In this document: piece by piece, positions 26,069-30,314 of the stretch
Layout: each line of letters opens with the position of its first letter
Numbering within the stretch: the first letter of the stretch is position 1
From: Candidatus Bathyarchaeota archaeon
Lineage (GTDB): Archaea > Thermoproteota > Bathyarchaeia > 40CM-2-53-6 > DTDX01
Assembly: GCA_018396775.1 (NCBI GenBank)
Contig: JAGTRF010000002.1
Coordinates: 78,069-125,193 of the forward strand
Length of the DNA: 47,125 nucleotides
Reading direction: 5' to 3'
Notes under the pieces: model-generated
Databases searched by the model: none
Told to the model about the DNA's origin: nothing
What the model saw: only the letters and a program-made list of their open reading frames with translations
Made by a program: the position numbers and the translations under genes

Positions 26069-26809
26069 ATGAAGATTTCTCATAGAAAATTTATTGCATT
26101 ATCAAGTTTTGTAGAAGCAGGCATATCGTTAAGACAAAACACTCAACCTTTAAAACCTCCAGAGGGAAAAGCCAAAGTTTTTATAGCAGCCGCTGAAAAT
26201 AAACAAGCCAGCATTAAACAACTTTTAGAAAATTTTCATCTTGAAAATTACAGTGCCCTTCAGTAGCTTTAAAAGCAAATTTTAATAGCACCGATTCTTT
26301 CCCAGCCTCCACATATATAACAACTTTAACAACTGTTATTAAAGCTTTAAAAGAGGTAGAAGTAAAAGAAATACTTTAGGTGAATGCAGCGGCATAGGAA
26401 ATACTGGAGAAATTCTTGAAAACAAAATGGTGTTTAGTTTATCTAAAAAACTTGGATTTAAAGTTGTTGTTTTAGATGAACTAGGTAAGGAGGGTGGATT
26501 CAGATTTCTCCAAATGAAACACATTAGCTTAACGGTTTTCTAATAGTTAAAATATTTTTAGAAGCAGACAAAGTAACTCATAGGTTTGGTGGTCACTTTA
26601 CAACGTCTTTAAAGAATTCTGTTGGATTAATAGCTAAACAGCTTCCTGGAAATCCATATAATTATATAGCGGAGCTTCATTTATCTCCCTTTCAAAGATT
26701 TATGATTAGTGAAATAAACAGGTTTTATAAAGTTGATTTAATAGTTATGAATGCTGAAAAAGCTTTTGTTAAAGGCAGTCCAGAAAAAGGGGAGGTTGTA
26801 AAACCCTAA
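26069..26809 (+). pseudogene. Decayed DUF362-family protein gene
   Basis: A DUF362-like sequence is spread over several frames. From the ATG at 26069 comes KISHRKFIALSSF and KAKVFIAAAENKQASIKQLL; after a frameshift near 26255, VALKANFNSTDSFPAST and TTVIKALKEVEV; after another near 26375, LGECSGIGNTGEILENK; after a third near 26494, WIQISPNETH, an in-frame TAG, LNGFLIV, then TLRFGGHFTTSLKNSVG-like residues (read THRFGGHFTTSLKNSVG) and NAEKAFVKGSPEKGEV before a stop. At least three frame changes plus a nonsense codon show loss of function. The end is also truncated relative to the family (usually about 300 residues). DUF362 proteins are uncharacterised. Confidence 0.85.
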
Positions 26810-26825
26810 GCTTATTTTAGAAAAA

Positions 26826-26835
26826 TTTATATATT
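26826..26835 (+). promoter_or_regulatory. TATA box of the ArsR-like regulator gene
   Basis: TTTATATATT is centred about 36 bases before the ATG at 26867, giving a 5' leader of roughly 10 bases or none. It overlaps the palindrome at 26833-26848. Confidence 0.6.
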
Positions 26836-26848
26836 ACATTAGTGTAAT
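26833..26848. promoter_or_regulatory. Palindromic operator candidate
   Basis: ATTACA-TTAG-TGTAAT is a perfect 6+6 bp inverted repeat with a 4-base centre, overlapping the TATA box and lying upstream of the predicted transcription start. A dimeric winged-helix protein bound here would block TBP/TFB, so autorepression by the downstream ArsR-like protein is the simplest reading. Confidence 0.55.
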
Positions 26849-26866
26849 TACCTTTAGATAACAAAA

Positions 26867-27271
26867 ATGAGCTTGAAACTTCTTCTAGTAAAAGACGGAG
26901 AAACAATTCTTGAAGTACCTTTAACTCCTACTCTTTGGCATCGCGAAAAATTTAGAAAAGAGCTTCAAGAATTAGACTTCAATTATTTTCGAAAGCTTTT
27001 TCAAGCTTTATCTAATGTTTATCGTTTAAAAATGATGACGAAGTTTTTTGAAGATGATGAGTTGATGCTTAGCTTCTCAGATTTCATGCGAGAATTTAGC
27101 TTAAACCCAAAAATAGTTTCAGAAAATATAAAAAAGCTTCAAGAATGCGATTTGCTGGAAAAATCTGAAGATGGAAAATATAAATGCTCAAAACTTGGAG
27201 AAATCGAGTTTCTGCTAGTTAGCATCGCTTTAAACCGCATCCTTAAATTCATTAAAAAACTTGGGTTATAA
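26867..27271 (+). CDS. ArsR-like winged-helix transcriptional regulator
   Basis: 134 residues. After an N-terminal strand region (LKLLLVKDGETILEVPLTPT), residues about 38-110 form a winged helix: FRKLFQALSNVYRLKMMTKF as the first helix, LSFSDFMREFSLNPKIVSENIKKL as the HTH, and LLEKSEDGKYKCSKLGEIEF as the wing. There is no Cys-rich metal-sensing motif in the usual ArsR positions, so the signal is unknown. A palindrome covers its promoter. The downstream CxxC and TraB genes are in the same direction and may share its transcript. Confidence 0.75.
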   Translation: MSLKLLLVKDGETILEVPLTPTLWHREKFRKELQELDFNYFRKLFQALSNVYRLKMMTKFFEDDELMLSFSDFMREFSLNPKIVSENIKKLQECDLLEKSEDGKYKCSKLGEIEFLLVSIALNRILKFIKKLGL

Positions 27272-27303
27272 AAAATTTTGAGGTATAAAAGAGGTGAGCT
27301 AGT

Positions 27304-27510
27304 TTGGTTTTAAATAAATCAAGCATTAAAGAATTTAAGAGATTAAATGAAAAATTGCTAAAACTTAATTTTAACAATTGTGTTGATTGCAAACCTGTTA
27401 AAGCAAATATTTCGTTAGGCAGTTTTAAATTTATTGAAGCACCTCCTCGTCCCAGAAGGTTAAGAAGGCCTTTTAAGATTATAAAAAAGGTGTTTAGAAA
27501 TGAAAACTGA
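27304..27510 (+). CDS. Small basic CxxC protein, unknown
   Basis: 68 residues. The start is TTG with GAGGTGA 6 bases upstream. It carries one CVDC (CxxC) pair in the middle and a Pro/Arg-rich C-terminal part (EAPPRPRRLRRPFKIIKKVF). I recognise no family. The good ribosome site and an 11-base overlap with the TraB gene, suggesting coupled translation, support a real gene. The single CxxC might bind metal as a dimer or be redox active; the basic tail might bind nucleic acid or membrane. These roles are guesses. Confidence 0.6.
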   Translation: MVLNKSSIKEFKRLNEKLLKLNFNNCVDCKPVKANISLGSFKFIEAPPRPRRLRRPFKIIKKVFRNEN

Positions 27511-28201
27511 AATTTTAAATCTAGATTACACAAACTATGTTGATATTCTTGGTACTGCACATTTTACTCAAAGAAGCGTTATCGAAGCTTATCAAGCTGT
27601 GAAAAACACAGGAACAAAAGATTTAGCTATAGAATTAGATGAAAAACGTTTTCGCATGCTTAACAAGCTTTGTTTTTATTGTTTAAAAAAAGCTTTTTGT
27701 TCTTCTAGATGCGAATTTACCACGGCAACAGAAGCTTTAAGAAATATTGACGCAAACATATGGTTAATCGATATGTCTGAAAAAGATATGTTAAACAGAA
27801 TTCAGCATTTAAACCCTTCAATTTCTCAATCTCAATTATTATATGCTTTAAGTATGGTTAAAGATGAAGAATTACCATGGCTTTGGGAAAAAGGATTTAA
27901 AAGTGAGGCGCTTAAAAGATCAACTAAAAGACTTAAACTTCTTCGAAAAATCTCTCCCCAAATTTGGAGAGTTTTAATTGAAGAACGAAATGCTTTAATG
28001 GCAGCAAGGCTAGCAGTTATAGCTTCAAACATAATAGAGAATGATGAAACACCAAATATTCTAGCTTTAATGGGTGCAGCTCATGTAGAAAGTGTAAAAA
28101 AACTTTTAAAAAATCCTATATTAATTCAATTAACTCTTAAAAAACTTGATTTACAATATTCCTCACCAACCTTAATAAGAAAAATTAAACTTCAAAATTA
28201 A
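27500..28201 (+). CDS. TraB/PrgY-family protein
   Basis: 233 residues with the TraB-family motifs: ILGTAHFTQRSVIEA near the N-terminus, LAIELDEKRF, EERNALMAARLAVI near the C-terminal third and LMGAAHVESVKKLL. The family includes the PrgY pheromone-shutdown protein, TIKI proteases and mitochondrial TRABD; it is thought to be a metal-dependent peptidase with GxxH and E residues. Many archaeal members have C-terminal membrane helices; this one has none and should be soluble. It overlaps the CxxC gene by 11 bases. Confidence 0.8.
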   Translation: MKTEILNLDYTNYVDILGTAHFTQRSVIEAYQAVKNTGTKDLAIELDEKRFRMLNKLCFYCLKKAFCSSRCEFTTATEALRNIDANIWLIDMSEKDMLNRIQHLNPSISQSQLLYALSMVKDEELPWLWEKGFKSEALKRSTKRLKLLRKISPQIWRVLIEERNALMAARLAVIASNIIENDETPNILALMGAAHVESVKKLLKNPILIQLTLKKLDLQYSSPTLIRKIKLQN

Positions 28202-28255: not shown

Positions 28256-28978
28256 TTAAGTTTTAACTGCTATTACTGGTATGTGAAGTTCATTTGAATT
28301 ATGAGGAGGATGATCTCCACAAATTATAATTAAACTGTTAGATTTACACTCTTTAAGAATACTTATAATATTTTTATTGACAATTTTAATCGTCTCAGGT
28401 TTATAGCTTAATTTATCTAAAATTCTAAAGTGAGCGGTTATTAAATCACATTCTTCACTTAAAGCTTCTAAAACACCTTTTTTAATTTCTTCATCAAAAA
28501 CAATAATGTCATCTTTATTTTTTACAGGTTTAATTAAATCTATGCGGTTTTTAAAAGTTAATGCTCCTTTCTCCTCCATTACCACAGCTATTTTAAAACC
28601 TAAACTCACAGCAACTTCAAGTATAGATTTAAATTTGCTTTTATAAACATCCTCTGTTTTATACACTTTATGGTTTTCAGGTTTTCTTCCAGATAAAATT
28701 GAAGCTATGGCTGGTGTAGTCTTATCCGCATTAATTTTACATTTATACAACTTTCCATTTTGAATTGATGGAGTGAAGAAGCTTAACCAATTAAGGTAGT
28801 GCGAATATCCAAGAGCATCTATTATTAAGAGAACTATTTTAACGCATTTTTTACCATATTCCACTATTTCAGATATTGGTTTTCCATCAGCTTGAAATGG
28901 TATTTTAAGTATTTCTGCAATTGTTGGGGCTATATCTATTTGCTCCATTAAACATAAATTTTTCAAGCTTCTAGACAC
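28256..28978 (-). CDS. AlkP-superfamily protein, apparently permuted
   Basis: 240 residues. The metal-site and nucleophile motifs of the alkaline phosphatase/nucleotide pyrophosphatase superfamily are present: VLLIIDALG (metal Asp), TTPAIASILSGRKPENH (nucleophile Thr), AHFRILDKLSY, and ICGDHPPHNS (metal Asp/His). The segment IDIAPTIAEILKIPFQADGK, which in related enzymes lies at the C-terminus after the last metal His, is here at residues 14-33, ahead of the core. The GTG at 28978 may lie upstream of the transcript: a TATA-like AAATATATAAT (minus strand, near 28992-29000) suggests the ATG at 28948 as the real start. Probably a phosphodiesterase or phosphatase; substrate unknown. Confidence 0.7.
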   Translation of the reverse strand: MSRSLKNLCLMEQIDIAPTIAEILKIPFQADGKPISEIVEYGKKCVKIVLLIIDALGYSHYLNWLSFFTPSIQNGKLYKCKINADKTTPAIASILSGRKPENHKVYKTEDVYKSKFKSILEVAVSLGFKIAVVMEEKGALTFKNRIDLIKPVKNKDDIIVFDEEIKKGVLEALSEECDLITAHFRILDKLSYKPETIKIVNKNIISILKECKSNSLIIICGDHPPHNSNELHIPVIAVKT

Positions 28979-29241: not shown

Positions 29242-29841
29242 TTGCTTTTATTTTTGCTTTCTGTAATTGCGATATCTTTATCAGGGGTTATGATGCCAGG
29301 TCCAATATTTGCTGTTACTGTTGCTAAAGGAAAATTTGATGGAAATGCAGGTTTATATATTGCTTTAGGTCATGGAATCATTGAATTTCCATTAATAATA
29401 TTAATTTACTTTGGTTTTTCTCAGTTTTTCACTTATGAAATAGTTAAGAAAACAATTGGTTTTATTGGAGGTTTAATGCTTCTTTATATGGGTTTTCTAA
29501 TGTTTAAAACTCGTAAGAAAGTTGAGGAAAAAGCTTTAAGCTTTAACTTCAACTCTTTAATTGCTGGCGTTGTAGCTACAGGTGCTAACCCATATTTTCT
29601 TCTTTGGTGGGCTACAATCGGTGCTGCCTTGGTTTCTAATGCAACAAGCTATGGTTTAAGCGGATTTATCATTTTTGCTTTAACTCATTGGATATGCGAT
29701 TTAACTTGGGATTTATTAATCTCAAAAATTGTTTATAAATCTAAGCGTTTTTGGAATGAAAAGATGCATAAGGCAATTTTTATTTGTTGCGCTTTAATCC
29801 TGTTTGGTTTTGGTTTATGGTTTATAATAAGCTCTCTTTAA
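29242..29841 (+). CDS. LysE/RhtB-family amino-acid exporter
   Basis: 199 residues and about six membrane helices. The family start is clear: SGVMMPGPIFAVTVAKGKFD with the PGP motif after the first helix, then IALGHGIIEFPLII; helices at about 1-22, 38-60, 66-86, 110-135, 140-160 and 175-198. It exports lysine, homoserine/threonine or similar compounds in bacteria and archaea; the substrate here is unknown. The start is TTG with GGAGGT 9 bases upstream. Confidence 0.88.
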   Translation: MLLFLLSVIAISLSGVMMPGPIFAVTVAKGKFDGNAGLYIALGHGIIEFPLIILIYFGFSQFFTYEIVKKTIGFIGGLMLLYMGFLMFKTRKKVEEKALSFNFNSLIAGVVATGANPYFLLWWATIGAALVSNATSYGLSGFIIFALTHWICDLTWDLLISKIVYKSKRFWNEKMHKAIFICCALILFGFGLWFIISSL

Positions 29842-29897
29842 TACAAAAAATTTATATTAATCTTAATCCTATTAATCCATCGTTTAAAGTGATTTTT

Positions 29898-30314
29898 ATG
29901 TATTGTCCTAGTTGTGGAAAAGAAGTTAAGCAGGATGCGGTTTTCTGTCCTCATTGCGGTTCAAAAATAACTTCAAGAGAAGGTTTTTTAATGGTTACAA
30001 CGCCTACAATCCCAGGCTACAAAATAGTTAAGGTTTTAGGTGTAGTTACGGGTTTAACTCCTCGTACAAGAGGCGTTTTAGGAAAGTTTATTGCCAGCTT
30101 TCAAACAATAAAAGGGGGAGAAATAACAGCTTTCACTACTGAGCTTGAAAAAGCTAGACAAGAGGCTATGGACCGTGTAAAACAAAAGGCTATAGAAATG
30201 GGTGCTAACGGTGTTGTTGGATTAGATATTGAAACTTCAGATCTAGGTTTACAAGCAGGAATCACAGTTATTTCAGCAACCGGAACAGCTGTTATTGTTG
30301 AACCTGAACAATAA
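29898..30314 (+). CDS. Zinc-ribbon protein with UPF0145 (YbjQ) domain
   Basis: From the ATG at 29898, 138 residues. A zinc ribbon, CPSCGKEVKQDAVFCPHCG at about 3-21, is fused to a YbjQ/UPF0145 domain (IPGYKIVKVLGVVTGLTPRT, then ARQEAMDRVKQKAIEMGANGV and ATGTAVIVE). The frame is open upstream to 29784, but the 38 extra residues overlap lysE and come before the obvious zinc-ribbon start, so they are excluded. UPF0145 proteins form pentameric rings and have been proposed to bind metals; function is not established. A TATA-like AAATTTATATTAA lies near 29848-29860. Confidence 0.85.
   Translation: MYCPSCGKEVKQDAVFCPHCGSKITSREGFLMVTTPTIPGYKIVKVLGVVTGLTPRTRGVLGKFIASFQTIKGGEITAFTTELEKARQEAMDRVKQKAIEMGANGVVGLDIETSDLGLQAGITVISATGTAVIVEPEQ

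Follow-up and report, generated by a model that had tools for sequence, protein, structure and literature searches.

A predicted self-regulated protein-quality-control operon with a winged-helix regulator and a soluble TraB-family gene in Bathyarchaeia

What does a short cassette of three genes, headed by a winged-helix regulator and closed by a TraB-family gene, do in an archaeon of the class Bathyarchaeia? The window, the whole stretch of 47,125 nucleotides analyzed here, comes from a 1.33-Mb Bathyarchaeia genome. The regulator gene (26867-27271, +, 134 aa) encodes an N-terminal beta hairpin, a winged helix, and a long C-terminal helix, and its product is a likely autorepressor. It is followed by an open reading frame (ORF) with a TTG start (27304-27510, +, 68 aa), preceded by the ribosome-binding site GAGGTGA (27291-27297, +), and by a TraB-family gene (27500-28201, +, 233 aa) that overlaps this ORF by 11 bases. 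The initial annotation had described these features correctly and had gone on to propose a small-peptide response unit. We suggest instead that the cassette is probably an autorepressed protein-quality-control (stress) operon with the regulator as its first gene, which would work in the manner of the archaeal heat-shock regulators Phr and HSR1 with a different operator.

Several neighboring genes were also noted. A degraded gene (26069-26809) lies between leucyl-tRNA synthetase and the regulator, and its last readable piece is DUF362-like (E 8e-5); in G001, the one other genome of the genus that was compared, the regulator follows leucyl-tRNA synthetase across a short gap without the degraded gene. 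The gene at 28256-28978 (-), convergent with TraB, has weak similarity to the sulfatase/alkaline-phosphatase superfamily and adjoins the cassette in G001 too. Positions 29784-30314 encode a protein with a zinc ribbon and a YbjQ domain (PF01906), translation of which probably begins at an internal ATG and not at the listed TTG.

The palindrome ATTACA-TTAG-TGTAAT was confirmed at 26833-26848; it occurs once in the window, where shuffles lead us to expect none. The core promoter (26815-26832, +) consists of a BRE-like AGAAAAA and a TATA box, TTTATATA (about 26825-26832), as judged against the BRE/TATA consensus (PMC10746257), and has the same placement relative to the operators in aligned relatives. 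Since the palindrome starts directly behind TTTATATA, it abuts the TATA box rather than covering it, and the overlap of the two that had been claimed does not hold. The core of the palindrome is a first predicted operator, TTACATTAGTGTAA (26834-26847, no strand), with the motif TTACN6GTAA, and is conserved in G001. A second copy, absent from the initial annotation, sits directly 3' of the first at a 14-bp pitch (TTACCTTTAGATAA, 26848-26861, no strand); it departs from the motif by one mismatch and is intact in G001 (TTACCTTTAGGTAA). The tandem of TTACATTAGTGTAA and TTACCTTTAGATAA, that is, TTACN6GTAA followed directly by TTACN6RTAA (26834-26861), was found in 0 of 100 shuffles, and both operators lie between the TATA box and the start codon of the regulator.

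We then scanned for TTACN6GTAA the 130 bp ahead of the 58 distinct regulator genes whose upstream sequence was long enough. At least one match was present in 57 of the 58 and at least two in 50 (shuffle average, 0.29), spaced mostly by 14 or 24 bp, with the 14-bp pitch the commonest (33 pairs). The exact tandem was found at 41 sites in 36 of the 257 class genomes scanned, compared with 1 for a reversed-pattern control, and 36 of the 41 sites are upstream of a regulator gene. Given this recurrence upstream of the regulator across the class, and upstream of other genes of the set where these are unlinked from it, comparative genomics strongly supports the proposal of a self-regulated cassette: as for Phr and HSR1, a palindromic operator precedes the regulator gene at its own promoter. 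The other five sites, unlinked from the regulator, precede a lone TraB gene (G248), an Hsp20-TraB pair and an HExxH protein gene (both in G058), and the gene of a DUF5320-like coiled-coil protein (G171 and G161). Hence, all exact tandem sites precede a small consistent set of genes. A looser operator cluster also lies upstream of the HExxH gene of G025. The small DUF5320-like protein was seen at L005:189-404, L007:167-382, L144:1783-2055, and L202:1471-1680, its gene being either divergent from the regulator or behind tandem operators of its own. Single operator matches elsewhere in the window genome were at chance level (7 versus 9 in the reversed control), so the regulator may act there on its own operon only. 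A genome-wide regulon in that genome was rejected on this count; the two sites inspected (L155 and L156) are inside coding genes.

The order of the genes is conserved well beyond the window, which supports a joint unit of regulator, middle gene, and TraB. The regulator is encoded in 87 and this TraB family in 28 of the 257 class genomes, and in 22 of the 28 the two are same-strand neighbors. In 20 of the 22 they flank a gene for full-length Hsp20 (about 170-217 residues), which is missing only from the window genome (G000) and G001; this middle gene matches Pfam HSP20 as well as the archaeal Hsp20 model NF041800 (E 1.3e-25, below the curated cut-off). G001 keeps the three-gene order of the window, with both operators and with GGGGTGA at the position matching the window's GAGGTGA. 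A protein as short as 60-68 residues occupies the middle slot only in the window's genus. As for the six TraB genomes outside the 22, G248 and G058 have TraB units with their own operator, G249 has regulator-Hsp20 elsewhere, and the remaining three are G007, G006, and G054 (longer TraB paralog). Outside the class, G449 has a homologous regulator-Hsp20-TraB order with a shorter Hsp20.

What, then, is the 68-residue protein? It had been called unrecognised, and indeed no Pfam or NCBIfam family matched it; Pfam detected no alpha-crystallin domain, for which there is no room ahead of TraB. In a tblastn search of relatives, only the G001 match was significant, the others being chance. The ORF has 60 residues in G001, and the two proteins have changed fast (52% identity, dN/dS about 0.37), with the reading frame and PRRLRRPFK kept and the CxxC not. 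The ORF occupies the Hsp20 slot, and we consider it likely that it encodes an Hsp20 N-terminal stub without the alpha-crystallin domain. In the Hsp20 of relatives, a Pro/Arg linker (e.g., NPMRPRPRPQRPFEVP) precedes this domain, and a profile-profile comparison by hhalign places residues 28-64 of the 68-residue protein on the Pro/Arg-rich linker directly before it; the score of 15.46 was equaled by about 3 of 200 column shuffles and is suggestive only. An Hsp20 HMM scored the protein no higher than its shuffles, and pairwise scores against the Hsp20 N terminus were not significant (z 1.4-1.6); with these two negative, direct sequence proof of the identity was set aside. This weak similarity to the Hsp20 N terminus would also fit a replacement of Hsp20 by a new, unrelated gene or by a chance ORF, with the regulator and TraB retaining their stress role. 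However, the slot, strand, and spacing are the same as for Hsp20, the best profile alignment ends up where a truncated Hsp20 would be expected to match, and the shared frame and PRRLRRPFK recur in two species, which makes a replacement rather unlikely. The window genome retains other Hsp20 genes.

The assignment of the third gene to the TraB family was borne out, with 32.3 bits against PF01963 and a gathering cut-off of 26.8. The protein contains near-invariant GTAH (18-21), ELD (45-47), ERN (162-164), and GAAH (192-195) motifs. The two GxxH motifs and the acidic motif of the family are thus present, GTAH, ELD, and GAAH showing little or no variation among 13 sequences. An extra four-cysteine motif, Cx2Cx5Cx3C (58-71), is kept in nearly all. 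TraB evolves under a dN/dS of about 0.14 between the window and G001. Its predicted structure is of middling confidence (pLDDT 66), and the best matches in a fold search were Tetrahymena complex IV subunits (E 0.01); a literature search on the function of archaeal TraB found nothing. TIKI/TraB proteins are putative metalloproteases (PMC12329661), and the protein here is a probable metal-dependent hydrolase or protease, to which a four-cysteine metal site would have been added. It resembles TIKI/TraB/PrgY in its score over the Pfam cut-off and in the GTAH...GAAH pair, kept in nearly all; it differs from them in the added cysteines and in a linkage to chaperone genes rather than to pheromone or Wnt signaling, and from TIGR00261-type TraB in that it is soluble, 233 aa long, and without a membrane part. 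G025, G089, G150, and G160 carry truncated or broken TraB genes, so TraB is dispensable, which weighs against the stress-operon reading; in G006 the gene is split.

The description of the regulator as ArsR-like stands weakly only: it scored 19.6 bits against Pfam HTH_5 (cut-off, 22) and 26.3 bits against NCBIfam HTH_metalloreg (cut-off, 55). A fold search returned generic MarR/ArsR winged helices, and its dN/dS between the window and G001 is about 0.11. We found no full-length homology to Phr, since the regulator matches the structure 2p4w, which we take to be Phr, over the winged helix only (E 0.04). In family f23, the regulator (L004:276-965, L014, and L015) is extended at its N terminus by a domain of about 95 residues (VDVVGWSPTRRVAIECK) that by eye is like a PD-(D/E)xK nuclease fold and has no Pfam match. 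That the closest named models are ArsR/SmtB metalloregulators and that TraB has the conserved Cx2Cx5Cx3C could point to a metal or redox stress operon, in which an ArsR-like metalloregulator controls a TraB that binds metal via its four cysteines. Yet inspection of the window regulator revealed two scattered cysteines only and no ArsR/SmtB metal-binding motif of the CxC type, with scores far under the cut-offs; the companions are a chaperone, an AAA+ ATPase, and an HExxH protein, not transporters or reductases; and the TraB of G007 is without the cysteines yet retains the core motifs. We therefore regard a metal or redox operon as improbable.

The company kept by the same regulator family at other loci points to protein quality control. 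Its operons include regulator-Hsp20-HExxH (L191 and L192), regulator-HExxH (L193 and L195), regulator-HExxH-Cdc48 (L194), and regulator-Cdc48 (L143). Cdc48, an AAA+ ATPase, adjoins the regulator in G058 and G038, and not in the window. Counting against the stress-operon reading, solo HExxH genes are mostly without an operator (site in about 4 of 30). Members of the HExxH family, with the motif LLHEYLH, were seen at L161-L195 (e.g., L151:2192-2794 and L141:2659-3180) and are in the regulator operon in some lineages. In the cassette, TraB occupies a position that at those other loci belongs to the HExxH protein or Cdc48, a putative metalloprotease or unfoldase, and on this basis TraB may be a hydrolase in protein quality control.

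The same partners count against the small-peptide response unit, in which the 68-residue CxxC protein would be a signal or substrate bound or cleaved by a PrgY-like TraB under control of the regulator. The small ORF does have its own ribosome-binding site, an overlap with TraB, and a dN/dS indicative of moderate purifying selection. But its slot holds a full-length Hsp20 in nearly all genomes with the regulator-TraB pair, the sister species G001 lacks the CxxC, the protein shows by eye neither a signal peptide nor a membrane segment, and the partners at other loci (Hsp20, Cdc48, and the HExxH protein) belong to protein quality control and not to peptide signaling; this proposal is very improbable. 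A defense-associated module, with a regulator related to Csa3-type factors and TraB as effector, is hardly credible, for the match to the PADLOC Csa3 model is weak (E 4e-6) and centered on the winged-helix part, neither TraB nor the small protein hits a PADLOC defense model, and no CRISPR or defense gene is present in the operon of relatives.

We return to the autorepressed protein-quality-control operon. Comparison of genomes establishes the gene order, the conservation of the predicted operators, and their presence before TraB, Hsp20-TraB, HExxH, and DUF5320-like genes elsewhere. In our proposal, the winged-helix protein would sit as a dimer on the tandem TTACN6GTAA operators, downstream of the TATA box and ahead of the start codon, and from there would bar RNA polymerase from the regulator's own promoter. 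Phr stops RNA polymerase joining the TBP/TFB complex (PMC9133787); because the operators here fill the stretch from TATA box to start codon, their position suggests a repressor, rather than an activator, that would likewise keep the polymerase from this complex. Stress would then release the regulator and the whole operon would be made; with Hsp20, Cdc48, and the HExxH protein as companions, our guess at the signal is heat or misfolded protein. The operon's products in most relatives would be a holdase, Hsp20, and a soluble enzyme of the TraB family, probably a metal-dependent hydrolase or protease. Hsp20 would have lost its alpha-crystallin part in the window's genus, and the short N-terminal stub left behind may still couple regulator and TraB by translation overlap, so that the operon would supply TraB and the stub.

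Two dedicated archaeal heat-shock transcription factors have been described, the euryarchaeal proteins Phr and HSR1; the Sulfolobus branch has none on record (PMC9133787, PMC10653856, PMC10746257). Both are autoregulators, and each has an sHSP together with an AAA+ ATPase in its regulon (PMC9133787, PMC10653856). Like the system predicted here, Phr of Pyrococcus furiosus is a winged-helix autorepressor with a palindromic operator near the transcription start, and its regulon has Hsp20 and an AAA+ ATPase (PMC9133787, PMC10746257, PMC10653856). In our set, Hsp20 is present in the 20 relatives and represented in the window by the putative stub only, and Cdc48 adjoins the regulator in G058 and G038. 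TGGTAA, present in the Phr site, is similar to the GGTAA half-site of the operator here. In contrast to Phr, the regulator here is a weak sequence match with a different N-terminal part, its operator is a tandem of TTACN6GTAA, and TraB is not named among Phr targets in the literature searched. The HSR1 gene of Archaeoglobus fulgidus is the first of an operon containing hsp20, and HSR1 binds a palindrome, CTAAC-N5-GTTAG, at its own promoter (PMC9133787); the arrangement in the relatives appears analogous, a regulator gene at the head of an operon that contains hsp20, with a palindrome at its own promoter, but the operator differs in sequence and spacing. Compared with the archaeal Hsp20 of NF041800, the window's genus has only the 60-68 residue stub without an alpha-crystallin domain. 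Orthology of the regulator to Phr is not supported, and the likeness to Phr and HSR1 would be one of working.

A bolder reading, which we offer as speculative, is that Bathyarchaeia own a heat-shock-type repressor acting through tandem TTACN6GTAA, whose regulon would pair Hsp20 and Cdc48 with two interchangeable proteases, the HExxH protein and a soluble TraB that binds zinc. This TraB would be a cytosolic metalloprotease induced by stress, and in the window's lineage a free Hsp20 N-terminal arm would have been kept without the chaperone core as a TraB partner or adaptor. The N-terminal arm of sHSPs often contacts clients.

Our literature search found no such stress-response switch for this branch of archaea. 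A predicted regulator with a defined, recurrent operator in Bathyarchaeia would extend heat-shock-type switches to another part of the archaeal domain. The operon analysis also points to a widespread HExxH protein, encoded in 173 of the 257 class genomes and without a Pfam or NCBIfam match over the cut-off, and gives soluble archaeal TraB proteins a testable protein-quality-control context.
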